Source of the DNA: Alphaproteobacteria bacterium
Lineage (GTDB): Bacteria > Pseudomonadota > Alphaproteobacteria > Geminicoccales > Geminicoccaceae
DNA: 39,321 nucleotides
Direction of reading: 5' to 3'
Assembly (NCBI GenBank): GCA_030431615.1
Contig: JAUIID010000023.1
Coordinates: forward strand, 1-39,321
Of this stretch, positions 2,875 through 38,461 are shown piece after piece. The notes under the pieces were generated by a model. That model saw only the letters and a program-made list of their open reading frames with translations. It had not been told where the DNA came from and searched no databases. The translations under genes were made by a program, and so were the position numbers. How positions within the stretch are numbered: position 1 is the stretch's first letter; each line of letters opens with the position of its first letter.

Positions 2875-3788
2875 GGCCGTGCGCCGCCCGGCCAGAGCTC
2901 GGGGAACGGCACCGGATCGCAGAAGTCCGGGTCACCGTTCGGCAGCCGCCGGCATAGCAGCTCGTCGGCGATGCGCACCGGCTTGCCCTTGGGATCGAGA
3001 TAGCGGCGATAGCGATTAGCCGCATCCTGCAGATGCACAGCGAGGGCGAGCCGTGGCTGCGGCGACCGGTTCGGCAGGCTGCCGTGCAGCGCCCAGCAGT
3101 GATGGAAGCTGATCTGCCCCTTCTTGAGCGTGATCGGCACGCGCTCCACCACATGGCCCTGCGCGCGAAAACGCGCCTCCACGGCGTCGAGATCGGGATC
3201 GTTGAAGAACCGGGTGTGCTCGAGATCGCCCCACCGATGGCTGCCGTCAATGACGACGAGTGGACTGCGATCGAGCTCGACATCGTGGAACGGGATCCAG
3301 GCGGTCAGCATGTTGTCTGAGCTGCAGGTGCCCCAGTAGGCGTGGTCGGCATGCCAGCCGACCGCGGTGGCCCGCCCCGGCTCGGCGGCGTTCGGTGGCG
3401 CGGGCGCCTTGTAGACGAGCTGGTCGTCGAGCAGGCGAATGCTCGAGGTGCGGGCGAGCCGGGCGGCGATCGCACCGATCGGCGGCGCCTGGACGAGGGC
3501 CCGGATGGCATCGTTCTGCAGGGACACGAACTCGTTGTTGCGGATCGGGGCACCCTCGCCCGGTTGCCAGTCCCTGAACGCGCCCTGGGCCGGCAGCGCC
3601 CGGTCGCGTTCGCCGGCGTAGAAGCGCTCCGCGCCGGCGGCAGCTTCATCCAGGAGTGCCTCGGGCAGGACGACGGGCGAGATGTACCAGCCATGCCGCT
3701 CGTAGAAGGCGACATCCGCATCACCTGGCACGAAGCAGGCGGGCGAAGTGAATCGGGCATCGTCGTCATGCGCTGGCGAGCTGAACAT
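2871..3788 (-). CDS. Phytanoyl-CoA dioxygenase (PhyH) family protein
   Basis: A 305-residue Fe(II)/2-oxoglutarate-dependent oxygenase. The metal-binding triad is visible as H146-x-D148 (in GWHADHAYWG) and the distal H235 (FHHCWALHGS), with R246 placed to bind 2-oxoglutarate. The family hydroxylates unactivated C-H bonds of very different substrates (fatty acyl-CoAs, amino acids, natural-product intermediates), so the substrate cannot be told from sequence. It overlaps the following FemAB/GNAT-like gene by four bases and so probably acts with it, for example by hydroxylating the group that is transferred or the acceptor. No clear Shine-Dalgarno sequence precedes the ATG at 3788 (upstream reads GAAAGAACCTTTC), so the start is less certain than the frame. 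Confidence 0.82.
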   Translation of the reverse strand: MFSSPAHDDDARFTSPACFVPGDADVAFYERHGWYISPVVLPEALLDEAAAGAERFYAGERDRALPAQGAFRDWQPGEGAPIRNNEFVSLQNDAIRALVQAPPIGAIAARLARTSSIRLLDDQLVYKAPAPPNAAEPGRATAVGWHADHAYWGTCSSDNMLTAWIPFHDVELDRSPLVVIDGSHRWGDLEHTRFFNDPDLDAVEARFRAQGHVVERVPITLKKGQISFHHCWALHGSLPNRSPQPRLALAVHLQDAANRYRRYLDPKGKPVRIADELLCRRLPNGDPDFCDPVPFPELWPGGARP

Positions 3789-3917
3789 GAAAGGTTCTTT
3801 CGAGGGCGGCGGGCCGACTGCAGGAGCGGACCGGCTGGCAGGGTGTTTGCTCTCACAAGGAGACGCAACGGCTTGCGACTTGGAAAGGACCTAGCAGCAG
3901 AAGTCTTCGCGTCATCT

Positions 3918-3934
3918 GTCGGTATCTCTTACAT
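3918..3934 (-). promoter_or_regulatory. Candidate shared upstream motif, copy 1
   Basis: On the plus strand the site reads GTCGGTATCTCTTACAT (reverse ATGTAAGAGATACCGAC). A 14-of-17 match (GTCGGAAATTCTTACAT) lies at 12869-12885 in the divergent region upstream of the dehydratase gene. This copy is about 130 bp before the dioxygenase start, inside the 283-bp gap 3789-4071, whose AT content is higher than its surroundings. It may be a promoter element or regulator site; with two copies this is weak evidence. Confidence 0.3.
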
Positions 3935-4071
3935 TTTGTTGCGATCCTGGGAGAGTGAGGCGAAGTTGCCTGGATTCCGGCGACAATCTCCGCGCGAGCG
4001 AGGCGCTACCGGGGCGGCAGCGGCCGCGCGGCTCGCGCGATCGTGTACGGGCGGCACCACATTTGTTCCGG

Positions 4072-5196
4072 TCATTGCCGGGCCGTACCGGTGTTGGCAC
4101 CCGTCGCTTCCGCAGACGGCTCCGCCCGATAGGCCGGGAAATAGCCGGTCTGCTCCAGGGTCCGGACGTCGACCCCGAGCGAGGCCGCCCGGGCCTGCGT
4201 GAGCGCGGCATAGCGGTCGGGGTCGAGCACCGCGCGGACGGTACGGAACCGGGCGCGGCCGGGCCCGAAGCTCGACTTGAAGCAGAGCACGCCGTCGTCC
4301 CGGCCACCGACGCCGCCGCCCAGATGCACCGCCCGGGCGCCCGATGCATGGGCAGAGACGAGCAGCCGATCCGGCGAACGCGGCAGGGCCGCCGTGCTCG
4401 TGCCACCGACCAGCGTCTGCACCAGCCCGCCGCAGCGACTGACCAGGGTCGCCGCCACGGGCACTCCCTGCAACTCGACGAGCCAGACCTCCAGATGCGC
4501 GGCGAGAGGGTCGAGGGCCCGGAAATAGGCGGCATTGAAACGCTCATGCCCGCCGACGCCGACCCGCTCCATGGTTTCGTCGTAGATGCGCCGGAGCCAG
4601 GGCAGCCCGTCCGCGAAGGCCAGTCGCCGGGCGCACATGCCCGCCCGCCTGGCGCAGGCGATCTGCTGGCGCCGCCGTCGGCTGACGCCGCTCCAGACCA
4701 CGTCCAGGTCGGCATCGAGCTCGATCAGCACCGTCGCCCAGGCGCGCTCGGTAATGTCCGGCGACCCGGCGATCGGTGGCAGGGCGTCGAGGCAGGGATG
4801 GCTGCGCAGGAAGGCGCTGACGGCGCCCCGCTGGCGCAGCGCGGCGAGGAAGGCGGCGAAAGCGCGCTCGCAGAAACCCGAGGCTGCCGATCCGGCCGTG
4901 GCCACCGGGCCTGGATAGCCATAGGGCGAGACCATATCGAGCACGTGACCGGCCGCCTCGATACCGGGCAGCCGGGCACGGCGCATGATGCAGGGCGCGA
5001 ACCAGAAGTCCTCGCCCTCGGCATAGACGAAGGCTTCAGGCCGGCCGCCCTGCCATCGGGCCTCGGCGTGCAGGTAGGCGGGCTGATGATAGATGTCGTG
5101 GGGCAGCCCCGCCAGCATGGCAGGCCAGAGCGGGTCGTCGTGGCGCAACCAGCGCCCACCCGGGTCGCCTTTCATCGCCGGGTCGATGCTGCGCAA
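4072..5196 (-). CDS. FemAB/GNAT-like acyl- or aminoacyl-transferase, paralogue 2
   Basis: A 374-residue paralogue of the 1756-2874 protein in the same order of blocks: LPHDIYHQPAYLHAEA (31-46), PYGYPGPVA (91-99), FLRSHPCLD (129-137), a basic SRRRRQQIACARRAG segment (172-186) where FemAB-like proteins carry their conserved basic helix, HLGGGVGGRDD (291-301) followed by FKSSF, and the C-terminal YFPAYR. The role is unknown beyond transfer of an acyl or aminoacyl group in polysaccharide synthesis (inference). The start is taken as TTG at 5196 because GGAGCGAGG lies just upstream; an in-frame ATG at 5175 has no such site. It is separated by 283 bp from the dioxygenase gene downstream of it on the same strand, so it may be its own transcript. 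Confidence 0.78.
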   Translation of the reverse strand: MRSIDPAMKGDPGGRWLRHDDPLWPAMLAGLPHDIYHQPAYLHAEARWQGGRPEAFVYAEGEDFWFAPCIMRRARLPGIEAAGHVLDMVSPYGYPGPVATAGSAASGFCERAFAAFLAALRQRGAVSAFLRSHPCLDALPPIAGSPDITERAWATVLIELDADLDVVWSGVSRRRRQQIACARRAGMCARRLAFADGLPWLRRIYDETMERVGVGGHERFNAAYFRALDPLAAHLEVWLVELQGVPVAATLVSRCGGLVQTLVGGTSTAALPRSPDRLLVSAHASGARAVHLGGGVGGRDDGVLCFKSSFGPGRARFRTVRAVLDPDRYAALTQARAASLGVDVRTLEQTGYFPAYRAEPSAEATGANTGTARQ

Positions 5197-5374
5197 TTCG
5201 CCTCGCTCCGTCGTCGCCGTTCGAACGCACGGTCAACTCTGCCATGCCAACGGCGCAGAATTCTTAAGACGCAGCGATATTCGTCGAAGTCCCGGCGGCT
5301 CACACCCTCCGCTACGCCCGCCGTTAACCTTTCGGCGGCGGCCGCAGGGTGCCTTCGCCTTCAGGCGGTGCCGG

Positions 5375-24309: not shown

Positions 24310-24876
24310 ATGCAGACCACCGCCGAAGCGCCCGGCAACACCCTCTTTCCCATCGTCCTCTCCCTGGTCGCCGCCGCCGCGACCGGCGTGCTCTGGGCCT
24401 ATGCCAACCCGATCCAGCTCGTGCCCGGCGTCATCCAGTGGCGCATCTTCGCCTTCCTGCCGCCCCTGATCGGCATCCTGCTCGGCCCGAAGAGCGGGTT
24501 CATCTGCGGTTATCTCGGTACCATCGTCTGGTCGCTGCTCGCCGGGACGTTCATTCCTGCCCATTCCTTGATCATCGACGGCATCATGGTGGGCCTAACC
24601 GGCTTCGTGCCCGGGCTGCTGTTCGATCCGGCGAAGACCGTGTTCAACCGTGCCACGCTGCTCAAGATCGCGGTCGTCTGCCTCCTTGTTGGCCTTGTGA
24701 TGGTGGCGGCGGTATCGGCGAGCCTTGCCTATCTCGGCATTTTTCCCTTCGCCTGGGCCCTTCTCTATCTCGGTCTTTCGGACATCGTGCCGATGATCAT
24801 CGGCACGCCGCTGCTCGTCGTCCCGGCGCAGAAGATCCTGAAGAGCGCCATGCAGACCGGCTTCACCCGGTTCTAG
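24310..24876 (+). CDS. ECF transporter substrate-binding (S) component
   Basis: A 188-residue hydrophobic protein with about six spans, the normal size and topology of an ECF S component, which captures the substrate and topples in the membrane when coupled to EcfT. It has the small-residue-rich first helix (PIVLSLVAAAATGVLWAYA), then IQWRIFAFLPPLIGILLGPKSG and GYLGTIVWSLLAGTF. I cannot place it in a known specificity class (riboflavin, thiamine, queuosine and so on). GGAG lies ten bases upstream of the ATG. The ATPase gene starts 16 bases after the stop. The predicted sigma-54 start site excludes an upstream ATG at 24256. Confidence 0.85.
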   Translation: MQTTAEAPGNTLFPIVLSLVAAAATGVLWAYANPIQLVPGVIQWRIFAFLPPLIGILLGPKSGFICGYLGTIVWSLLAGTFIPAHSLIIDGIMVGLTGFVPGLLFDPAKTVFNRATLLKIAVVCLLVGLVMVAAVSASLAYLGIFPFAWALLYLGLSDIVPMIIGTPLLVVPAQKILKSAMQTGFTRF

Positions 24877-24892: not shown

Positions 24893-26407
24893 GTGCTCGA
24901 GGTCGACAGCCTGACGGTGAGCTTCGGCAGTGCCACGCCAGCCGTCGAGGGCGCATCGCTGACGCTCGCCGAAGGCGATGGCCTCCTCGTCTGCGGGGCG
25001 ACCGGTGCCGGCAAGTCGACACTGCTGGCCGCCGCCGCCGGCCTCGTGCCGCGCCTCGTCCGGCAGGCGGCATTCTCGGGCAGCGTCCGGCTCGATGATC
25101 GCCCGCTCGCCGACCGGACGACGGCCGAGCTCTTCGCCCAGATGGGCATCGTCCTGCAGAACCTCGACGATCAGCTCTGGGACCTCGGCGTCGAGGACCT
25201 GATCGCCTTCCCGCTCGAGAACCGCGGCGGCGAGCGGGAGGCCATCAGGGCGCGGGTCAGCGAGCTCCTGCTGGCACTCGGCCTCGACGGCCTGCGCGGG
25301 CGCCGTGTGCTGACGCTCTCGGGTGGCGAGCGACGCATGGTGGCGCTCGCGGCATCCCTGGCGCTGGTGCCACGCCTCCTCGTGCTCGACGAACCGACAA
25401 CCGGCCTCGACCCGGCGGCACGGCTGCGCCTCGTCGAGACGCTCTCGAGGCTGCGGAATGCCATCCCGATGCTGCTGATCGCCGAACAGGACGCGGCCCC
25501 CCTGCTCGGGGTCGCCAGCCGTATCGCCTTCATGCACGATGCCGTCCTGGCGGATGGGGTGGCAACGGCCGGTGCCATGCAGGGGGACAGGGCCTGGCTC
25601 GAGGCCGGGGTCCTGCCGCCACGCCGGCCCCGACATCGTCGGGCGGCATGCACTGGCGGCCGGACGCTGCTCGGGGTCGCCGGGCTGCGCACCGCCCGGG
25701 CCCGGGGCGACGGGGCGCCGGTGCTGCGGGACGTGGCGTTCGAGGTCGGCGCCGGCGAGGTGGTCGGGCTGATCGGCCGCAACGGCGCCGGCAAGACGAC
25801 GCTCGTCCAGACCATGCTCGGCCTGATCAAGGCGGCTGCCGGCGGCGTCGCCCTCGCCGGCGAGGACGCTGCCGGCTGGACACCGGCGCGGCGGGCACGG
25901 CGGATCGGCTACGTGCCGCAGAACATGCGCCGGGTGCTGTTCAACCTGACGGTTCGCGAGGAGTTGCTCTCTGCGCTCACCGGCTCGACCCGAGCGACCG
26001 CCGATGCGGCGCTGGCCGAACGCGTGCAGGCGGTGCTCGCCCGCTACGGGCTCGGTGCCACCGGCGAGGCCAGCCCGTTCGGGCTCTCCACGCGGCAGCA
26101 GGCTCTGCTCGGCCTCGCCTGCGTCGACTGCACGAGCGCCGATGTCGCCGTGCTCGACGAGCCGCTCCTGGCTCGCGACCTGGAAGGCCGGCGCATGCTC
26201 GAAGGCTTCCTCGACCGGCTGACCGCCGGCGGCCGTGGAGCAATGTTGATCTCGCACGACCTCGAGCTGATCGACGACGTGACGGATCGCACACTGATCC
26301 TCGACGACGGCCGGATCGTGTTCGACGGCCCGACCGCGCAGGCCTGGGACTCGGCCGCGTTCGCCGGGCTCGGCTGGCCTGCGCCGCACTTTGCCGAGGC
26401 GGCATGA
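24893..26407 (+). CDS. ECF transporter ATPase, fused EcfA-EcfA' in one chain
   Basis: A 504-residue protein with two ABC ATPase domains. Domain 1 (about 1-235): Walker A GATGAGKS (35-42), signature LSGGE (142-146), Walker B LLVLDEP (162-168), but the H-loop reads IAEQD, with Gln (Q199) in place of the switch His. Domain 2 (about 258-504): Walker A GRNGAGKT (295-302), Walker B VAVLDEP, normal H-loop ISHD (H455), but the signature is LSTRQ (398-402) instead of LSGGQ. In an ABC dimer these pair to give one canonical and one degenerate ATP site. The domains are usually separate genes (ecfA1, ecfA2) or a homodimer. GTG start at 24893; the stop overlaps the EcfT start by four bases (ATGA). Confidence 0.92.
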   Translation: MLEVDSLTVSFGSATPAVEGASLTLAEGDGLLVCGATGAGKSTLLAAAAGLVPRLVRQAAFSGSVRLDDRPLADRTTAELFAQMGIVLQNLDDQLWDLGVEDLIAFPLENRGGEREAIRARVSELLLALGLDGLRGRRVLTLSGGERRMVALAASLALVPRLLVLDEPTTGLDPAARLRLVETLSRLRNAIPMLLIAEQDAAPLLGVASRIAFMHDAVLADGVATAGAMQGDRAWLEAGVLPPRRPRHRRAACTGGRTLLGVAGLRTARARGDGAPVLRDVAFEVGAGEVVGLIGRNGAGKTTLVQTMLGLIKAAAGGVALAGEDAAGWTPARRARRIGYVPQNMRRVLFNLTVREELLSALTGSTRATADAALAERVQAVLARYGLGATGEASPFGLSTRQQALLGLACVDCTSADVAVLDEPLLARDLEGRRMLEGFLDRLTAGGRGAMLISHDLELIDDVTDRTLILDDGRIVFDGPTAQAWDSAAFAGLGWPAPHFAEAA

Positions 26408-27078
26408 GGCGCGCGCACGAGGTCAACTTCTTCGTCAAGCTGTTGCTGGCCAGCCTGATCATGGTCGCCGCCTGGCTCGCACCCTCCTGGATCATCGGCT
26501 GGGCCATCGCCCTTGCCGTCGTCGCCCTGCTCGGCGCCACGCGGGTCCCGGGGCTCCGCGGCTATCTCAAGGGCGGGCTGCTGCTCGTGGCGCTGGTGAT
26601 GGGCACCTGGACGGTCAATCTCACGCTCCAGGGCCTGCCGCTCGACGCGGCGCTGGCGACGGCGGCGCGGATGGCGGCCCGCCTGATCGCGACCACCGGC
26701 GCCTTCTTCTTCGTCATGGAGACGAGCACGCCGGGCTCGATCCTCGCCGCCTGCAGCGCTGCCCGCCTGCCATCGATGGCGACCCTCGTCCTGTCGCTCG
26801 TCTTCGGCGTGATTCCGATGCTGCGCGAGGAGTTCGAGCGGATCGGCGACGCCCAGCGGGCGCGCGGCATGGAAATCGATGGCGTGCCGCTGCCGACCCG
26901 CCTGCGCTTCGCACTTGCCCGCGGCGTGCCGCTGCTGGTCCAGGCGGTGCGTATGGCGCATGCCATCTCCATCTCGCTCGCCATCTATGGCTACGACACG
27001 CGCCACAAGCGATCGACCTGGCGCCATGTCGGCCTCATGGTCGAAGCGCGCCTGCCCTTGCCCGAGAGGAGCCCATGA
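26404..27078 (+). CDS. ECF transporter energy-coupling transmembrane protein EcfT (CbiQ-like)
   Basis: A 224-residue membrane protein with about five spans. It transmits ATPase movements to the S component through two long coupling helices, each normally ending in an Ala-Arg-Gly motif that docks on an ATPase. The first motif is intact (AQRARGMEIDG, A153-R154-G155). At the second position the sequence is SLAIYGYD (A193-I-Y195-G196), so the arginine is missing. The gene overlaps its neighbours by four bases on both sides (ATGA), which places ATPase, EcfT and phosphoribosyltransferase in one translationally coupled operon. Confidence 0.88.
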   Translation: MRRAHEVNFFVKLLLASLIMVAAWLAPSWIIGWAIALAVVALLGATRVPGLRGYLKGGLLLVALVMGTWTVNLTLQGLPLDAALATAARMAARLIATTGAFFFVMETSTPGSILAACSAARLPSMATLVLSLVFGVIPMLREEFERIGDAQRARGMEIDGVPLPTRLRFALARGVPLLVQAVRMAHAISISLAIYGYDTRHKRSTWRHVGLMVEARLPLPERSP

Positions 27079-27710
27079 CAACTGCAACACAGCGCTCGCC
27101 AGTGAGCGACCAGACCTGGCCGGTCGACGTCGCCGGCTGGCAGGTCGACCTGCCGCTGGTCGAGATCAACCCCGACTTCGCCATCTCGCTGATGATGGTC
27201 ATCGATCTCGGCGTCGGCTTCGGTGCCCATGTCGGCAGCAAGCTCGCGGAGCGGCTGGCCCCGCTGCGGCCGGACGTCGTCGTCGGCACCGCCACGCTCG
27301 GCATCCCGATCGCCATCGAGACCAGCCGGGCCCTTGGACTCGATCGCTATGTCATCCTGCAGAAATCGCCGAAGCTGCATCTCGGCGACGCGCTGCAGCA
27401 GAAGATCACCTCGATCACCTCGAAGGGCGAGCAGCGGCTGCTCCTCGATCGCCGCGCCGTGCCGCTCCTGGCCGGGCGGCGGGTCGTGCTGGTCGACGAT
27501 GTCGTCGCCACGGGCTCCAGCCTGAAGGGCTCGATCGAGCTGGTCCGGGCGGCCGGGGCGGAACTGGTCGGCATCGGCGTCGTCCTCACCGAAGCCAGCG
27601 ACTGGCGGGCGGTCCTCGGCGGCGACGCGGACCTCGTGCATGGCCTCGCACATATCCCGCAGTTCCGGCCCGGCCCGGATGGCTGGCGGCCGATCCCGGA
27701 AGACGGCTGA
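27075..27710 (+). CDS. Type I phosphoribosyltransferase, APRT/PyrE-like
   Basis: A 211-residue protein with the 13-residue PRPP-binding motif VVLVDDVVATGSS (137-149) of type I phosphoribosyltransferases and the GTATLGIPIA segment that forms the pyrophosphate loop. These enzymes attach a nucleobase to PRPP, giving a nucleotide and trapping the base in the cytoplasm. Which base is used is not clear: the hood region does not match adenine, hypoxanthine or orotate enzymes by eye. ATG at 27075 overlaps the EcfT stop (ATGA) and has GAGAGGAG just upstream. As the last gene of the ECF operon it probably acts on the imported substrate. Its stop is only 6 bases from the stop of the convergent pot-type operon. 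Confidence 0.85.
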   Translation: MTTATQRSPVSDQTWPVDVAGWQVDLPLVEINPDFAISLMMVIDLGVGFGAHVGSKLAERLAPLRPDVVVGTATLGIPIAIETSRALGLDRYVILQKSPKLHLGDALQQKITSITSKGEQRLLLDRRAVPLLAGRRVVLVDDVVATGSSLKGSIELVRAAGAELVGIGVVLTEASDWRAVLGGDADLVHGLAHIPQFRPGPDGWRPIPEDG

Positions 27711-27716
27711 GCGACC

Positions 27717-28565
27717 CTAGCCGGCGGCGACCGGCTCGACCGGCGTCGCTCGCGCCTCCCTCCGCCGCAGGATCTCGTAGACGACCGCACCCAGGATGGT
27801 CAGCGCGATCATGATGACGCCGATGGCGTTGACCGCCGGAGTCAGGCCGAGGCGGACGCGCGTCGCGATGTTGAGGGTGAGCGTGTCCTCGATGCCGATG
27901 ACGAAGAGGGTCGTGTTGTAGTTCTCGAAGGACTGGAGGAAGGCGAGCACGGCACCGGAGAGCAAAGCGGGGCGGAGGAAGGGCAGCATCACCCGGCGCA
28001 GCATCAGGCCGTGGCTGGCGCCGAGGTCGAGGGCGGCCTCCTCCTGGGTGCGGTCGAAGCGCTCCAGCCGGGCGAGGAAGAGCAGCATGCAGTAGGCGGC
28101 GATGAAGGTGCTCTGGGCGATCACCGCGAGCATCAGGCCACCGCCCACGTCGAAGACGTAGCGCCAGAAGACCAGGGTCGAGATGCCGAGGATCACGCCG
28201 GGGGTGAGGATCGGCGAGACCATGACGCCGTAGAGGAAGGACTTGGCCCGGGTCCTGATGGTCTGGAGGAAGAGCGCACCGGCGAGACCGACCGGGATCG
28301 AGACCAGGATGACGCCGAGGCCGATCAGCACCGAATTCCAGATCGCCATGCCCATGCGGCCGTCCTGGAAGAGGCCGATGGCGCGGCCGCGGCTGTCGAA
28401 GCCCCAGAACCAGTCCAGCGTGAAGCCCTGCCAGGGCAGCATGGTGGGAAAGCGGCTGTCGTTGAAGGCGGCGGCCACCATGAAGACCAGCGGCAGGAAG
28501 AGATAGGCGAAGAAGAGGGCGAGGTAGACGTAGACGAAGAGGTCGACCAGCCGCTTCGCGCTCAT
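27717..28565 (-). CDS. ABC transporter permease, PotC-like
   Basis: A 282-residue inner-membrane permease of the spermidine/putrescine type with six spans. The EAA loop that contacts the ATPase is EEAALDLGASHGLMLRRVMLP. The last gene of a four-gene minus-strand operon; its ATG overlaps the stop of the preceding permease by four bases (ATGA). With PotB-, PotA- and PotD-like partners it would import a polyamine, betaine, opine or similar cation. Specificity cannot be read from the permease. Confidence 0.9.
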   Translation of the reverse strand: MSAKRLVDLFVYVYLALFFAYLFLPLVFMVAAAFNDSRFPTMLPWQGFTLDWFWGFDSRGRAIGLFQDGRMGMAIWNSVLIGLGVILVSIPVGLAGALFLQTIRTRAKSFLYGVMVSPILTPGVILGISTLVFWRYVFDVGGGLMLAVIAQSTFIAAYCMLLFLARLERFDRTQEEAALDLGASHGLMLRRVMLPFLRPALLSGAVLAFLQSFENYNTTLFVIGIEDTLTLNIATRVRLGLTPAVNAIGVIMIALTILGAVVYEILRRREARATPVEPVAAG

Positions 28566-29455
28566 TTCGCCACGTCCGCGATGCCGACGCGAAAGACGCG
28601 CATCATGACGAAGATGAAGATCACGCAGGAGACGAGCAGCGCGAAGGCGTAGGCAGCACCGCTGTTCCAGTCGCCGCCGTCGAAGAAGAGGCTGTAGATG
28701 ACCTGGGTGAACCAGCGGGCATTGGTGCCGCCGGGCAGCGCCTCGAGCAGCTGCGGCACCGCCACCGTGCCGGCGGCGAGCATGAAGGTCATGATGCAGC
28801 CGACGGCGATGCCGGGCTTGGCGTGGGGGACGACGACGCGGGCATGGATGCGGGGCCAGGAGGCGCCGAGGTCGCGGGCCGCCTCGATCTGGTTTCTGTC
28901 GAGGCTCTCGATGGCGTTGTAGAGCGGGAAGACCATGAAGAGGATGTAGGCATAGACCATGCCGACCATGACGGCACCAACCCCGCCCATGTTGAGCGGC
29001 GCCTCGGTGAGGCCGAGGCCCATGAGCACCTGGTTCAAAAGGCCGTTGCGCGAGAGGATCAGGAACCAGGAGAAGGTGCGCAGGATCTCGTTGACCCAGA
29101 AGGGCACGACGAGGCCGAGGACCAGGAGGGCCGCGGTCGGCCCACGGGCCACCTGCGCGAGGTAGTAAGCGACGGGGTAGCAGACGACGAGGGCGAGCAC
29201 GGTGACGAGGGCCGCCGAGAAGATGGTCCGCAGGAAGATGCCGCGATGCGCATCGTTGGCGAAGAGCGTGGCGTAGTTGGCGAGGCTGCGGACGTCCGCC
29301 GGACCACCCTGCTCGGGCACCGGCAGATGCGGACGGAGCGACATGTCGACCATGAAGAGCTGCGGCAGGACGACGAGGAAGAGCACCCAGAGGATCACCG
29401 TGCCGAGCACGAGGGCACCCGCCACGGCACCGAGCCGGCGGAAGAGCTCAGCCAT
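28562..29455 (-). CDS. ABC transporter permease, PotB-like
   Basis: A 297-residue inner-membrane permease with six spans, a periplasmic segment after TM1 (VDMSLRPHLPVPEQGGP) and the EAA loop IEAARDLGASWPRIHARVVVP. It pairs with the PotC-like permease to form the translocation path. The ATG overlaps the end of the ATPase gene by eight bases, so expression is coupled. Length is normal for PotB/HisQ-type subunits. Confidence 0.9.
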   Translation of the reverse strand: MAELFRRLGAVAGALVLGTVILWVLFLVVLPQLFMVDMSLRPHLPVPEQGGPADVRSLANYATLFANDAHRGIFLRTIFSAALVTVLALVVCYPVAYYLAQVARGPTAALLVLGLVVPFWVNEILRTFSWFLILSRNGLLNQVLMGLGLTEAPLNMGGVGAVMVGMVYAYILFMVFPLYNAIESLDRNQIEAARDLGASWPRIHARVVVPHAKPGIAVGCIMTFMLAAGTVAVPQLLEALPGGTNARWFTQVIYSLFFDGGDWNSGAAYAFALLVSCVIFIFVMMRVFRVGIADVAK

Positions 29456-30536
29456 CGCCCGCCACCGGCAGGAGCAGCGCCGCCTCGGCCGCGAAGCCGA
29501 TGGCGACGGGTGTGCCGGGCTTCAGGCGCGGCAGGCTGCCGTCATTGGCGAGTTGGGCCGTGACCTCGGCCCCGTCGTCGAGCCGGACCACGAGGCTGAC
29601 GAAGGCGCCCTCGAAGTCGAGCCGCTCGACCGTGCCGGCGAGCCGGTTGCCCGGGGCGTCGCCATCGAGCAGGCGGCAGCGTTCGGGGCGCACCACCAGC
29701 TGGGCCCTGGCACCCGCGTCGAGGCCGTGCGGGTTGCGGCCGGCGAGGCTGCCATGCGCGGTCTCCAGGATCGCCTCGTCGCCCGATGTGCCGATCACCC
29801 GGCCGGCCAGGACGTTGCTCTCGCCGACGAAGGTGGCGACGAAGGCCGAGGCCGGTGCGCGGTAGATCGCGTCGGCTGTGCCGACCTGCTCGATGCGCCC
29901 GTGGCTCATGACGGCGATGCGGTCGCTCATGGTGAGCGCCTCGCCCTGGTCGTGGGTGATGTAGACGAAGGTGACGCCGGTCTTCTGCTGGATGGTGCGA
30001 AGCTCGGCGCGCATCTTCTGCCGGAGCTTGAGGTCGAGGGCGGAGAGCGGCTCGTCGAGCAGCAGCACGGCGGGCTCGACCGCCAGCGCCCGGGCGATGG
30101 CGACCCGCTGGCGCTGGCCGCCGGAGAGCGCCGAGACGAGCTTCTCGCCCTGCCCTTCCAGGGCGACGAGCTCGAGCAGCTCGCCAGCACGGCGCCGGCG
30201 CTCGGCCCGGGCGACGCCCCGCGCCTCGAGGCCGAAGGCGACGTTCTCCCAGACCTTCATCAGCGGGAAGAGGGCGAGGTTCTGGAAGATCAGCGCCGTC
30301 GGCCGGCGGTTCGGGCCGATGCCGGCCATGTCGGCGCCGCCGATCCTGATGACACCGCCGGTCGGCTCATTGAAGCCCGAGATCAGGCGGAGGATCGTGG
30401 TCTTGCCGCAGCCCGAGGGGCCGAGGAACGAGAAGAACTCACCCGCCTCGATATGCAGGTCGGCATTCCTGACGGCGACGAAATCGCCGAACGCCATGCT
30501 CACCCGCTCGAGGGTGACGCTCTGTCCCGCCAGCAT
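29448..30536 (-). CDS. ABC transporter ATPase, PotA-like
   Basis: A 362-residue ATPase with Walker A GPSGCGKTT (39-47), Q-loop FQNLALFP, signature LSGGQ (137-141), Walker B VLLLDEP (157-163), H-loop VYITHDQGEALTMSDR, and a C-terminal TOBE regulatory domain (about 270-362). All catalytic motifs are intact. It powers import through the two permeases downstream. It starts 62 bases after the binding-protein stop. The symbol is left blank because the substrate may not be a polyamine. Confidence 0.92.
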   Translation of the reverse strand: MLAGQSVTLERVSMAFGDFVAVRNADLHIEAGEFFSFLGPSGCGKTTILRLISGFNEPTGGVIRIGGADMAGIGPNRRPTALIFQNLALFPLMKVWENVAFGLEARGVARAERRRRAGELLELVALEGQGEKLVSALSGGQRQRVAIARALAVEPAVLLLDEPLSALDLKLRQKMRAELRTIQQKTGVTFVYITHDQGEALTMSDRIAVMSHGRIEQVGTADAIYRAPASAFVATFVGESNVLAGRVIGTSGDEAILETAHGSLAGRNPHGLDAGARAQLVVRPERCRLLDGDAPGNRLAGTVERLDFEGAFVSLVVRLDDGAEVTAQLANDGSLPRLKPGTPVAIGFAAEAALLLPVAGDG

Positions 30537-30598
30537 CGGCTACATATCCGGCTTTGCGGCCCGGCCGACAACAGAGACGCCGGCCGGGCGCGCGGGCC

Positions 30599-31759
30599 TC
30601 AGGCCGAGAGGAAGCGGTCGCGGAACTCGTTGCGGGCCGCGACGAACCAGGTGGGCTCCGCCGGGTACCACCACAGGTTCTCGATGGCATTGCCCGGATA
30701 GGCCGCGGCGAAATTGGCGGCGTAGTCCTCGCCGGCGAGCTCGGCCGCTCCCTGGGTGCAGGAGTTGTAGCCCGAGAGGCGCACATGGATCGCCGCGTTC
30801 TCGGGCTGGTAGTACCAGTTCATCCAGGCATAGGCCTGCTCGAGGTTCTCCGCACCCGTCGGGATGCCCATGGAGTCCATCCAGGTGAGGGCACCCTCCT
30901 TCGCCGCCAGATAGGTGTAGCGGCCGCCAGAATCGGTGCGCATCCGCATGGCCGGGCCGTCCCAGGTCTGGCCGATGACCGCGCCGTTCTGCAGGAAGGC
31001 CGCCTCGGTCTCCTGGGCGTTCGACCAGAACTGGATGACCCGGTCCTTGCGCTCCACGGCGTAGGCGAGGCACTTCTCGTAGACCTCGCGCATCTTCGCC
31101 TCGTCGGCATAGGTGACGCGCATCTGGTCGGACGGCACCTCGCCGATTGCATCGAGATAGAGGCCGATGCCGAGCAGGGCGGAGTGGGCGCGGCAGGTGA
31201 CGAGGCCCACCATCTCCGGCGTCCAGAGCGAGCCGTAGCCGACCTCGCCATAGGCTGGCTGCATCGCTTCGGTGTCGATGCAGAGCGATTCGGTGCCCCA
31301 GTTGAAGGGCGTGGTGTAGCGCTTGCCGTCCTGGACGGCACCCAGGCCTTCGGAGCTCGCCCACATCGAGGGGATGATGCCGGCGACGTCGATCTGGTTC
31401 TCGTCGAGCGGCTGCAGAAGCTGCTGCTCGTGCCAGACGGGGGTGTAGGTGATGGAGGGCATGACGACGTCGAAGCCGGTGCCGCCCGAGGCCCTGAGCC
31501 GGTTGAGCACCTCGTCGTTGGAGCCATAGGTGGCGAGGTTGAGGGTGATGCCTGTCTGGTTCTCGAAGGACTCGATCATCTCCGGGTAGACGTAGTCGGA
31601 CCAGCTGTAGAGATTGAGCTCGCCCGACGACGACAGGGCGCGCCGGCTGATGATCGCCGGAGCCGCGATGCCGGCGCCGATGGCGGTCGTGGCCTGCAGG
31701 AAGCGCCGGCGCCTGATGCCGGGCACGCCGCCTATCCGGGTCTTCGTGTCTTCGGTCAT
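30599..31759 (-). CDS. Periplasmic substrate-binding protein, PotD-like, Tat-exported
   Basis: A 386-residue extracellular solute-binding protein (family 1/8, PotD/PotF group). The N-terminus has a twin-arginine signal, RRRRFLQ (16-22) followed by a hydrophobic run and a cleavage-like AxA region, so it is exported folded. The mature part begins with LNLYSWSDYVYPEMIESFE, the usual opening of polyamine-type binders, and is rich in Trp/Tyr (for example MNWYYQPENAA) that could cage a cationic ligand. ATG at 31759 is chosen because GGAGAG precedes it; another in-frame ATG lies at 31771. First gene of the operon. The ligand (polyamine, betaine or other) is inferred only from family. Confidence 0.9.
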   Translation of the reverse strand: MTEDTKTRIGGVPGIRRRRFLQATTAIGAGIAAPAIISRRALSSSGELNLYSWSDYVYPEMIESFENQTGITLNLATYGSNDEVLNRLRASGGTGFDVVMPSITYTPVWHEQQLLQPLDENQIDVAGIIPSMWASSEGLGAVQDGKRYTTPFNWGTESLCIDTEAMQPAYGEVGYGSLWTPEMVGLVTCRAHSALLGIGLYLDAIGEVPSDQMRVTYADEAKMREVYEKCLAYAVERKDRVIQFWSNAQETEAAFLQNGAVIGQTWDGPAMRMRTDSGGRYTYLAAKEGALTWMDSMGIPTGAENLEQAYAWMNWYYQPENAAIHVRLSGYNSCTQGAAELAGEDYAANFAAAYPGNAIENLWWYPAEPTWFVAARNEFRDRFLSA

Positions 31760-31860
31760 GGTGCTCTCCATCCCTGGTGACGCCCCGGCCGATCACTGCT
31801 GTCGGTCACCGGCGTCGATCGCTTGCTGCTGGCAGATGAGCGCGGTCGTTAAGCCGACCT

Positions 31861-34708: not shown

Positions 34709-37700
34709 TCAGCGCACGGTGAGCTTGAGCTCGATGCGCCGGTTCTGGCTGCGCGCCTCGGCGCTCGTGCCCGCCACCAGCGGCTGCGTGTCCGCAAAGC
34801 CGGCGGCAATCAGCCGGTCCTCCGGCAGGCCCCAGTCGACGAGATACTCGGCGACCGAGCTCGCGCGCGCCGCCGCCAGCTCCCAGTTCGACCGGAAGCG
34901 GCCGCTGCGGATCGGCAGGTCGTCGGTATGCCCGTCGATGCGCAGCATCCAGGGCAGGTCATCGGGCAGGGCATCGACCAGCTGCTTGAGCTCGAGCGCT
35001 ATCTGGTTCAGCGCGGCCCGCCCCTCCGGCGTCAGCTCCGCCTCGGCGGAGGGGAAGAGGAGCCCGGCAGTGAAGGCCACGTTGCGCCCGCTGAGCAGCG
35101 CCACGTCGTCGCCACCGCCGGCCGCCGCCAGCAGCTCGGAGGAGAGGCGCATCTCGCGCTCGACGGCGCCCTCCGCCGCGGCCCGGCTCACCGGGAGGGG
35201 CCGCAGGCTCGAGCCCAGCTGCTCGCCGATCAGGTTGAGCCGCTGATCGGCCTCCGACTGCCGCTCCGCCTCGAGGGCCGCAAGCTCCGCCTCGCGCCCG
35301 GCGAGCAGGCTCGCCTGCGCCTCTGTGGTGGCGCGCAGCTCGGCCAGCTCGGCGGCCTGGGCTGCCAGCCGCTCCCTGGTCGCTTCGTCGAGGTCGACGA
35401 TCTCGGCGATCGGCCGGGCATTCTCGCCAGCGGCGAGCGGCACTGACGCCACCGTCGCCTGCAGCTCGCTCTCGAGCGCCGCCTCGCGTGCTTCGGCCGC
35501 CGCCAGACGCTCCTCGAGGTCGTCGCGCGCCGCCTGCAAGCCGTTGCGCGACCAGTCCGCCAGCTCCAGCCGGCGCTGCAGCTCGGCAAGCTCCACGCCA
35601 CGCGAGGCCAGGGCCGCCGCATCCGCCTCGCGGCGGCTCTCCGCTTCGGCCAGTGCCATCTCGGTGGCCGCCAGGTCACCCTCCAGATCGTCGCGGGTCG
35701 CCTGCAGGCCGTTCCGCGACCAGTCCGCCAGCTCCAGCCGGCGCTGCAGTTCGGCCAGCTCGACACCACGCGAGGCCAGCGCCGCCGCATCGGCCTCGCG
35801 CCGGCTCTCGGACTCCGCCAATGCCGTCTCGGCGGCCGCCAGCTCGGACTCGAGATCGTCGCGGGTCGCCTGCAGGCCATTCCGCGACCAGTCCGCGAGC
35901 TCCAGCCGGCGCTGCAGTTCGGCCAGTTCCACGCCACGGGAGGCCAACGCCGCGGCATCAGCCTCGCGCCGGCTTTCGGATTCCGCCAGCGCCGCCGCGG
36001 CGGCCGCCAGCTCGGCCTCGCGCCCCGCCAGTTCCGCCTGCAGGGCGGTGAGCCGCTCGCTGCCTGCCGTCTCGGCCGCGGCGAGCTGCTCTTCCAGCTC
36101 GTCGCGGGTCGCCTGCAGGCCATTCCGCGACCAGTCCGCCAGCTCCAGCCGGCGCTGCAGCTCGGCGAGCTCCACCCCGCGCGAGGCCAGCGCCGCGGCA
36201 TCCGCCTCCCGGCGGCTCTCGGCTTCGGCCAGCGCCGCCTCGGCGGCCGCCAGCTCGGTCTCGAGATCATCGCGCGCTGCCTGCAGGCCGCCGCGTGACC
36301 AGTCGGCCAGCTCGAGCCGGCGCTGCAGTTCGGCAAGCTCGACGCCGCGCGACGCAAGGGCCGCGTCATCCGCCTCGCGGCGGCTCTCGGCTTCGGCCAG
36401 CGCCGCCTCCGTCGCCGCCAGCTCGGCCTGCAACGCCGTCACCGCCTCGTTGTCGGTCGCCTCGCTGGCGATCAGCGCATCCTCGGCCTCGGCCAAACGC
36501 GCCTCGAGATCGTCGCGCACCGCCTGCAGCCCGGCTGCAGTCCGCTCGGACAACTGCAGCTGACGCTCCAGTTCCGCCAGCTCGGCACCCTGTGATTCGA
36601 GCACGGCGACCTCGGCCACGCGCCGGTCCTCGAGCTCGGCCAACGCCTGGGTCGACGCCGCCAGCTCCCGTTCGCGCTCGGCGAGCTGCGCCCGGAGTGC
36701 CGCCACCCGCTCGCTCTCGGTCGCCTCGGTGGCGATCAGCGCATCCTCGGTCTTCGCCAGACGCGCCTCGAGATCGTCGCGCACGGCCTGCAGGCCGGCT
36801 GTCGTCCGCTCGGCGAGCTGCAACTGGCGCTCCAGCTCGGCCAGATCATCGCCGCGCGCCGCGAGCGCCGCCGCATCCGCCTCGCGACCGCTCGCCAGCT
36901 CCGCCAGGGCCGCGTCGCGGGCCGCCAGCTCGGACTGGAGCGCGGCCACCTGCTCGGCGGCCGCCGCTTCAGCGCTGCCCAGCGCATCCTCGGATGCAGC
37001 CAGACGCTGCTCCAGATCATCCCGCGTCGCCTGCAGGCCGGCTACCGTCGCCGCGGCTTGCTGCAGCTGCTGCTGCAGCTCGGCGAGCTGCCGACCGCGC
37101 GAGGCCAGCGCCGCCGCATTCGCTTCGCTGCGGCTCGTGGCCTCCGCCAGCGCCGCCTCGTGCGCCGCCAACGCTTCCTGCGCGGCCGTCTCCGCGGCGA
37201 TCAGTGCGTCGTCGGTCTCGGCCAGACGCTGCTCCAGATCGTCCCGCACCGTCTGCAGGCCGGCCACCGTCCGCTCGGCGAGCTGCAACTGGCGCTCCAG
37301 CTCGGCCAGATCATCGCTCTGGGCAGCGAGTGCCGCATCGCGCGCCGCCAGCTCTTCCTTCGCCGCGGCCTCGGCGGCGAGCAGGGTGCTCGCGGTCTCG
37401 GCCAGACGCCGCTCGAGGTCGTCACGCTCCGCCTGCAGGCCGGCGGCGGTCTCCTCGGACTGCCGCAGCTGCTGCTGCAGTGCGGTCAGCTGCCGGCCGC
37501 GCGAGGCGAGTGCCGCGGCATTGGCCTCGCTGCGGCTGGTCGCCTCCGCCAGTGCGGCCTCGCTGGCCGCCTGCTGTTCCCTGGCGGCCGCCTCGGCGGC
37601 GATCAGCGCATCCTCGGTCTCGGCCAGCCGCTGATCCAGATCGTCCCGCACCGTCTGCAGGCCGGCCGTGGTCCGCTCGGCGAGCTGCAGCTGCCGCTCC

Positions 37701-38461
37701 AGCTCGGCGATCCGTTCGTCCACGGCGACCGCATCGCTGGCGCGTTCCTGGGCAAGCTCCTGCTCCAGCGCCGCCATCCTGCTGCCGGCCGTGGCGAGCT
37801 GGGCCACGAGGGATTCCCGCACCGCCCCCTGCTCGGTGCCGAGCGCCTGCAGCTGCGCCGCCGTTTCGGCCTGCGCGTCACCGGCTGCATCCAGTGCTGC
37901 CTGACGCTCGTTCGCGATCTCGCTGAGCGCCGCTCGCTCCCGCTCGACCAGCTCCGCCCGACGCTGCAGCTCGGCCTGCTCGGCGCGCAGCGCATCGAGC
38001 TCGGCGCCGGCCTGCGCCAGGCGCTCGTCCGTGGCCGCAGTCGTTTCCTCGAGCTCCGCCGCGAGGCGGTCGCGCTCTTCGGTGAGTGCCGCTGCGGCCT
38101 CGCGCGACGCCGCCAGCTCGCTCTCGGCCGCGGCGAGCGCCGCCTCGGCCGCCGCCCGCTCCTCACCGACGGTGGCGAGCTCCGTCGGCAGCGGGCGCAG
38201 GGTCTGCAGCTCGCTGCCGAGCTCCTCCAGCCGGGCGAGCCGAGCCGCCGTGCCGGCCCCCTGCTCGGCCGGCATGTCGAGCGCCGTCAATGTCCGGTCG
38301 ACGCCCTTCTCGACCGTGTCGATGCGGTCGTAGGCATACCAACCTACGCCCAGGGCCGCTGCGATCGGGATCAGCGTGAAGCCCGCCGTCCGCCGGCGCT
38401 TGTCGCTTTCCCACTGGCGCAGATGCGCTTCGAGCTCGGAGATCCTGTTCGCCATGGCCAT
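34709..38461 (-). CDS. Giant coiled-coil inner-membrane protein with C-terminal OmpA peptidoglycan-binding domain
   Basis: A 1,250-residue protein. A short basic cytoplasmic N-terminus (KRRR at 21-24) precedes one span (about 25-45), so the rest should be periplasmic. Residues about 75-1090 are an almost unbroken Ala/Glu/Leu/Arg coiled coil with eleven copies of GLQxxRD(D/E)LE. Five near-identical 56-residue units (from AESRREADAAALASRGVEL to LADWSRNGLQATRDDLE) lie at about 685-990; each contains a Trp. Residues 1127-1250 form an OmpA-C/MotB-like domain with GHTDD and NRRIEL, which bind diaminopimelate in peptidoglycan. It would tie the inner membrane to the wall. ATG at 38461 or the in-frame ATG at 38455; neither has a clear ribosome site. 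The small membrane-protein gene lies 15 bases upstream, so they are co-transcribed. Confidence 0.87.
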   Translation of the reverse strand: MAMANRISELEAHLRQWESDKRRRTAGFTLIPIAAALGVGWYAYDRIDTVEKGVDRTLTALDMPAEQGAGTAARLARLEELGSELQTLRPLPTELATVGEERAAAEAALAAAESELAASREAAAALTEERDRLAAELEETTAATDERLAQAGAELDALRAEQAELQRRAELVERERAALSEIANERQAALDAAGDAQAETAAQLQALGTEQGAVRESLVAQLATAGSRMAALEQELAQERASDAVAVDERIAELERQLQLAERTTAGLQTVRDDLDQRLAETEDALIAAEAAAREQQAASEAALAEATSRSEANAAALASRGRQLTALQQQLRQSEETAAGLQAERDDLERRLAETASTLLAAEAAAKEELAARDAALAAQSDDLAELERQLQLAERTVAGLQTVRDDLEQRLAETDDALIAAETAAQEALAAHEAALAEATSRSEANAAALASRGRQLAELQQQLQQAAATVAGLQATRDDLEQRLAASEDALGSAEAAAAEQVAALQSELAARDAALAELASGREADAAALAARGDDLAELERQLQLAERTTAGLQAVRDDLEARLAKTEDALIATEATESERVAALRAQLAERERELAASTQALAELEDRRVAEVAVLESQGAELAELERQLQLSERTAAGLQAVRDDLEARLAEAEDALIASEATDNEAVTALQAELAATEAALAEAESRREADDAALASRGVELAELQRRLELADWSRGGLQAARDDLETELAAAEAALAEAESRREADAAALASRGVELAELQRRLELADWSRNGLQATRDELEEQLAAAETAGSERLTALQAELAGREAELAAAAAALAESESRREADAAALASRGVELAELQRRLELADWSRNGLQATRDDLESELAAAETALAESESRREADAAALASRGVELAELQRRLELADWSRNGLQATRDDLEGDLAATEMALAEAESRREADAAALASRGVELAELQRRLELADWSRNGLQAARDDLEERLAAAEAREAALESELQATVASVPLAAGENARPIAEIVDLDEATRERLAAQAAELAELRATTEAQASLLAGREAELAALEAERQSEADQRLNLIGEQLGSSLRPLPVSRAAAEGAVEREMRLSSELLAAAGGGDDVALLSGRNVAFTAGLLFPSAEAELTPEGRAALNQIALELKQLVDALPDDLPWMLRIDGHTDDLPIRSGRFRSNWELAAARASSVAEYLVDWGLPEDRLIAAGFADTQPLVAGTSAEARSQNRRIELKLTVR
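35497..36405 (-). repeat. Five in-frame 168-bp tandem repeats within the coiled-coil gene
   Basis: Copies of the marker accagtc(c/g)gc start at 35551, 35719, 35887, 36130 and 36298. Spacing is 168 bp (56 codons, eight heptads), except for one 243-bp step where 75 bp (25 codons) is inserted. Copies are nearly identical at DNA level, which suggests recent duplication or gene conversion. Boundaries are approximate. Confidence 0.9.

Follow-up and report, generated by a model that had tools for sequence, protein, structure and literature searches.

The tandem ECF ATPase encoded by a four-gene operon in a Geminicoccaceae genome carries two altered catalytic motifs that fall on one and the same composite ATP site. 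Alteration of this site, with the other left almost untouched, appears from the available sequences to be common in tandem ECF ATPases. We consider it likely that the motor has one main hydrolysing site and a second site that mostly holds ATP, such that about one ATP would be spent per transport stroke.

A tandem ECF ATPase with two unlike ATP sites

The analysed stretch of DNA, 39,321 nucleotides of contig JAUIID010000023.1, is referred to here as the window. The ATPase gene (24893-26407, +) begins with a GTG start codon and encodes 504 residues, an EcfA-EcfA fusion matched twice by the Pfam family ABC_tran. Walker A, Walker B, Q-loop and signature motifs are present in both ABC domains, and the best NCBIfam matches are the ECF ATPases TIGR04521 and TIGR04520, both under their equivalog cut-offs. 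The gene lies second in a tight ECF-type operon, preceded by an S-component-like membrane protein (24310-24876, +, 188 residues) and followed by the EcfT transmembrane coupling protein (26404-27078, +, 224 residues; Pfam CbiQ, 2.5e-16), whose ATG overlaps the ATPase stop codon (ATGA), and by a type I phosphoribosyltransferase as the final gene (27075-27710, +; Pfam Pribosyltran, 3.5e-17). The EcfT profile matches solved EcfT chains, the best at 6.8e-9, and its two Arg-containing (ARG) motifs are kept in seven EcfT proteins compared, with an SRG variant in one.

The 188-residue protein is a putative S component, on the basis of its position, its conservation (75-82% identity across all orthologous operons compared) and weak, sub-threshold matches to ECF-ribofla_trS and to a folate-family S component. 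It gave no match in phages and no profile match among solved structures, and its AF2 model, with a pLDDT of 53.8, was too poor for fold comparison. The corresponding gene of R. etli 8C-3 (L115, 5412-5984) is annotated as an "aminotriazole resistance protein" (WP_074063474.1), a name whose source we looked for and did not find. The phosphoribosyltransferase has its best NCBIfam match in an adenine PRT subfamily, under the cut-off of that model, and its gene is found in every orthologous operon compared. This constancy suggests that the importer may take up a nucleobase-like substrate, which would then be trapped with PRPP. To our knowledge no S component for purines or pyrimidines has been described, and an Rfam riboswitch search for a clue to the substrate returned no match. 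The operon is met from the opposite strand by what looks by eye like a polyamine-type ABC importer operon (27717-31771, -; ATPase, two permeases and binding protein), which converges on it. Elsewhere in the window, 34709-38461 (-) encodes a 1250-residue coiled-coil protein with tandem repeats of 168 bp (56 residues) and a C-terminus that is OmpA/MotB-like by eye.

ABC dimers pair head-to-tail, with the Walker motifs of one domain facing the signature of its partner (PMC7756269). Thus the domain 1 Walker A (GATGAGKST, 24995-25021, +), the Walker B catalytic glutamate E167 (25391-25393, +) and the H-loop position, residue 199 (25487-25489, +), would face the domain 2 signature (residues 398-402, 26084-26098, +), forming site 1. 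By the same geometry the domain 2 Walker A (GRNGAGKTT, 25775-25801, +), the catalytic glutamate E423 (26159-26161, +) and the H-loop histidine H455 (26255-26257, +) would face the domain 1 signature LSGGE (residues 142-146, 25316-25330, +), forming site 2. At site 1 the H-loop histidine is replaced by glutamine (Q199, in the context IAEQD; codon CAG) and the signature reads LSTRQ in place of LSGGQ (T400, R401 and Q402; codons ACG CGG CAG), with E167 intact. The first-pass annotation, whose numbering of E167, Q199 and E423 is right, had placed both substitutions on the composite site built from the domain 1 Walker motifs, and this assignment holds. In a domain-level alignment with 60 EcfA1/EcfA2 sequences, Q199 aligns with the histidine column and LSTRQ with that of LSGGQ, with no alternative histidine or LSGGQ, which rules out misalignment. 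Site 2 had been called fully canonical. Its Walker A, Q-loop, Walker B, histidine and LSGGE are so, but the aromatic residue of the domain 2 A-loop is gone (R269, 25697-25699, +).

Eight orthologues, 52-57% identical to the window ATPase, were found in three Geminicoccaceae, one Inquilinus MAG and four Rhizobium megaplasmids (G005 and CP122394.1 are one and the same record), and their existence rules out a sequencing error behind either substitution. The four-gene operon is kept in all orthologous loci compared. The system is sporadic, since the S component was found only in the window's own genome among 385 sampled across the class and in 4 of 31 genomes of the family Geminicoccaceae, and it is partly plasmid-borne. 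Position 199 is glutamine in all nine clade members, the domain 2 signature follows the pattern LS[AT]R[EQ] in 9/9 with Arg401 invariant, and E167 is likewise present in 9/9. Both substitutions therefore co-occur throughout the orthologues, where they are neither random nor absent, and their sharing at this level of identity argues against chance. The domain 2 D-loop (LLARD in the window, 26165-26179, +) is DEPL[LI][AS]RD in all nine, and elsewhere mostly DEPTxG[LQ]D. The clade retains the domain 1 A-loop aromatic. At the domain 2 A-loop position all nine members carry Arg or Leu, and all 104 other tandem ECF ATPases carry Tyr, Phe or His.

One-sided alteration across tandem ECF ATPases

These 104 other tandem ECF ATPases were gathered by profile searches, from loci met in other scans and from fetched regions, and were aligned with the window clade; the profile searches covered the window's own phylum and that of a Peptococcaceae MAG (G412). 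We counted as a site 1 lesion any change in the domain 2 signature, the domain 1 histidine or the domain 1 catalytic glutamate. At least one such lesion is present in 98 of the 104 (94%, a share that is likely an overestimate, as the profile that gathered most of them itself contains degenerate members), as against a site 2 lesion in 1/104. The domain 2 signature alone is altered in 55 proteins, and in one more it is accompanied by LSLGQ in domain 1. Signature changes are combined with His to Gln in domain 1 in 29 proteins, with His to Pro in one, and with loss of both the domain 1 glutamate and histidine in ten; His to Gln stands alone in two, and six proteins have no lesion at all. Glutamine thus occupies the domain 1 H-loop position in 31/104, compared with histidine in 60/60 EcfA1/EcfA2 sequences, and the domain 1 catalytic glutamate is kept in 94/104 and lost in 10/104. 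Taking the window clade and the others together, the domain 2 glutamate and the domain 2 histidine are each intact in 113/113, and SGG is retained in the domain 1 signature of 112/113. Altered domain 2 signatures mostly lack the first glycine alone (LSxGQ, LTKGE). Replacement of the second glycine by arginine is private to the window clade (0/104 others), as is the loss at the domain 2 A-loop.

The ten proteins without the domain 1 glutamate and histidine make up one clade (L225, L228, L229, L237, L239, L240, L243, L244, L247 and L252). In them the glutamate is replaced by Gln, Leu or Gly and the histidine by Asp or Glu, which makes them the strongest candidates for one-site ECF motors that we have seen.

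A less selected sample was taken from the tandem proteins among profile matches in long open frames. Of its 17 members, 12 have site 1 lesions (L125, L130, L141, L148, L153, L202, L207, L222, L229, L248, L322 and L323), four are canonical (L317, L318, L319 and L321) and one has a signature change at site 2 (L320, LSAGQ). Site 1 alteration is therefore not universal in tandem ECF ATPases. It does appear to be common among them, and the asymmetry, first described as a feature of this one protein, is not particular to it.

An EcfT-like open reading frame is present at every tandem ECF ATPase locus whose flanks were examined; the only examined locus that has none, L132, is a non-ECF control. Three regions from the Gln and Glu-lost groups, inspected by eye, contain EcfT-like genes in 3/3 and S-component-like genes in 2/3. 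At locus L313, two putative exported proteins (246-1094 and 3753-5294) flank an ECF operon whose ATPase has the H-loop glutamine; one of the two has prenyltransferase-like repeats and SLH-like ends, and by eye recalls cobalamin-binding proteins.

The controls are almost free of such changes. No lesion was found in 30 EcfA1 and 30 EcfA2 sequences (0/60), and the signature is altered in one of 24 control tandem ATPases, mostly of the non-ECF (peptide-importer) type. A fused EcfA1-EcfA2 pair in one open frame (L321; L265 and L298 are the same genes) is canonical. Together with the canonical tandem proteins L317-L319, this pair rules out that fusion itself causes degeneracy, and since there are tandem ECF ATPases that are canonical throughout, asymmetry is not required by the tandem architecture.

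A tree computed without the motif columns gave six parsimony changes for the domain 1 histidine, one for the domain 1 glutamate and six for the domain 2 signature at site 1, and none for the domain 2 histidine, none for the domain 2 glutamate and one for the domain 1 signature at site 2. The resulting contrast of 13 against 1 (sign test, p about 0.002) is built on approximate counts in which gain and loss are indistinguishable, because the tree is quick and has long branches. Separating H-loop glutamine from the rest needs four changes, and the window clade is separate from the other H-loop Gln groups; on this tree, H-loop glutamine arose more than once. The conservation of the replacement residues within the window clade, and the one-sided recurrence of the changes across a large family, suggest selection for asymmetry.

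How the two sites may work

We propose that the window ATPase serves as motor to a dedicated ECF importer and that its two ATP sites have diverged from one another. Site 2, with the domain 2 Walker A, E423, H455 and the domain 1 LSGGE, would be the main hydrolysing site. Site 1, comprising the domain 1 Walker A, E167 and Q199 with the domain 2 LSTRQ and altered D-loop, would bind ATP and help to close the ATPase sandwich while hydrolysing slowly or never. We infer the reduced hydrolysis at site 1, the retention of ATP there and the stoichiometry. For the holding of ATP the precedent is TAP, in which the degenerate site retains its ATP throughout turnover while the consensus site hydrolyses (PMC12422388).

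Hydrolysis at site 1 may nevertheless persist, because the catalytic glutamate is intact. Were both sites to hydrolyse, Q199, E167 and the arginine-containing signature would form an unusual active site, and the asymmetry would be one of sequence and rate-tuning. The conservation of E167 throughout the window clade and of the site 1 glutamate in most other tandem ECF ATPases speaks for this, as does the ECF module of Lactobacillus delbrueckii, in which both glutamates are needed: an E-to-Q change in either Walker B motif is enough to impair function severely, with severe growth defects when uptake is essential and ATPase activity not above background (PMC10368641). ECF motors can thus need both sites. 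Yet the window ATPase has lost the histidine and both signature glycines at one site, more than any control has, and the ten relatives that also lack the site 1 glutamate indicate that this site need not hydrolyse family-wide. We regard hydrolysis at both sites as unlikely, though it is the most serious of the alternatives.

Less probable still is that site 1 has simply drifted under relaxed constraint, its losses being tolerated and of no functional meaning. The varied kinds of loss, and the existence of tandem ECF ATPases that are canonical at both sites, would fit such drift. However, undirected drift should strike both sites, which is at odds with the parsimony counts, and in the window clade Gln199 and Arg401 are fixed while the domain 1 Walker A lysine and Walker B glutamate are kept.

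The pairing of the two domains was assessed on an AF2 model of the ATPase monomer (pLDDT 89.4, pTM 0.86). Its best whole-length structural matches are the tandem sandwiches of ATP-bound DppD (8wdb_D; Z 32.0, rmsd 3.6, 480 residues aligned) and pre-catalytic OppD (8j5s_D; Z 31.9, rmsd 3.1, 493 residues aligned). The ECF ATPases 5x40, 4huq and 8bmp match by a single domain, because their two ATPases are separate chains. The model supports the pairing of domain 1 with domain 2 within one polypeptide. Composite sites formed between polypeptides (domain 1 with domain 1, domain 2 with domain 2), each then altered in one half and none canonical, are highly improbable given this whole-length alignment, the observed pairing of one-sided lesions, which would not be expected from them, and the two ATPase domains that ECF modules have per EcfT.

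Returning to a hydrolysing site 2 and an ATP-holding site 1, many tandem ECF importers may, to judge by their motifs, run on a single working site, unlike the best-studied module. A broader reading is that the tandem ECF importers not belonging to the EcfA1/EcfA2 lineage are for the most part one-site engines, which evolved repeatedly and by several routes. Site 1 would then serve as an ATP clamp that does not hydrolyse, and transport would be driven by a single ATP at site 2. This generalization we hold tentatively, with the balance tipping slightly against it.

Relation to known ABC motors

Within the ECF family, group I tandem ECF ATPases such as YkoD of YkoEDC (PMC5037267) have the same arrangement as in the window: two fused ATPase domains, one EcfT, one S component (putative in the window) and a dedicated operon. 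The passages that describe YkoD cover the fusion and make no mention of degenerate motifs. The group II ATPases EcfA/EcfA' (EcfA1/EcfA2) share the ECF motor fold and the same kind of EcfT partner with the window ATPase, but their motifs are canonical in both proteins (60/60). The best whole-length structural matches, OppD and DppD of Mycobacterium tuberculosis (8j5s, 8wdb), are tandem NBD peptide importers of a different transporter family, and the peptide-type tandem controls are nearly all canonical (1/24 altered).

The nearest analogue is the pairing of a consensus with a degenerate site in TAP, MRP1 and CFTR. TAP1 carries Gln at the H-loop position. TAP1/TAP2, MRP1, CFTR and Pdr5 each combine a consensus composite site with a degenerate one, and changes to the signature, H-loop and Walker motifs at one site have been reviewed, with signature and Walker A changes in ABCG5/G8 (PMC7756269). 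As in such exporters, the signature and H-loop of the window ATPase are altered at the same composite site. These transporters are exporters, and their NBDs are joined to membrane domains, whereas the window system is an ECF importer. Loss of the Walker B catalytic glutamate, described as a hallmark of degenerate ABC sites (PMC7544095), is absent from the window clade, with E167 in 9/9. The likeness to ABCC/TAP transporters drawn in the first-pass annotation thus stands for the signature and H-loop and fails for the catalytic glutamate.

That annotation also knew of no description of asymmetric ATP use in ECF importers, and in the open-access literature searched we found no statement that ECF transporters have degenerate ATP sites. 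Asymmetric ABC motors are known; the ECF importer variant, which is widespread, one-sided and reached by several routes, appears undescribed in that literature.

The tandem motors altered at one site are a large natural set of ready-made test objects for the ATP cost per substrate and the equivalence of the two sites in ECF importers, graded from a changed signature alone, through His to Gln, to the additional loss of the glutamate. The contrast between the canonical split ECF motor, which needs both sites, and the many tandem motors in which one is altered makes this an informative system. If the proposed division of labour is true, the consensus/degenerate arrangement, known mainly in exporters, would extend to importers without a soluble binding protein. 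If the broader one-site reading is also true, asymmetric ATP use would have evolved repeatedly in importers, by various routes and at the same site.
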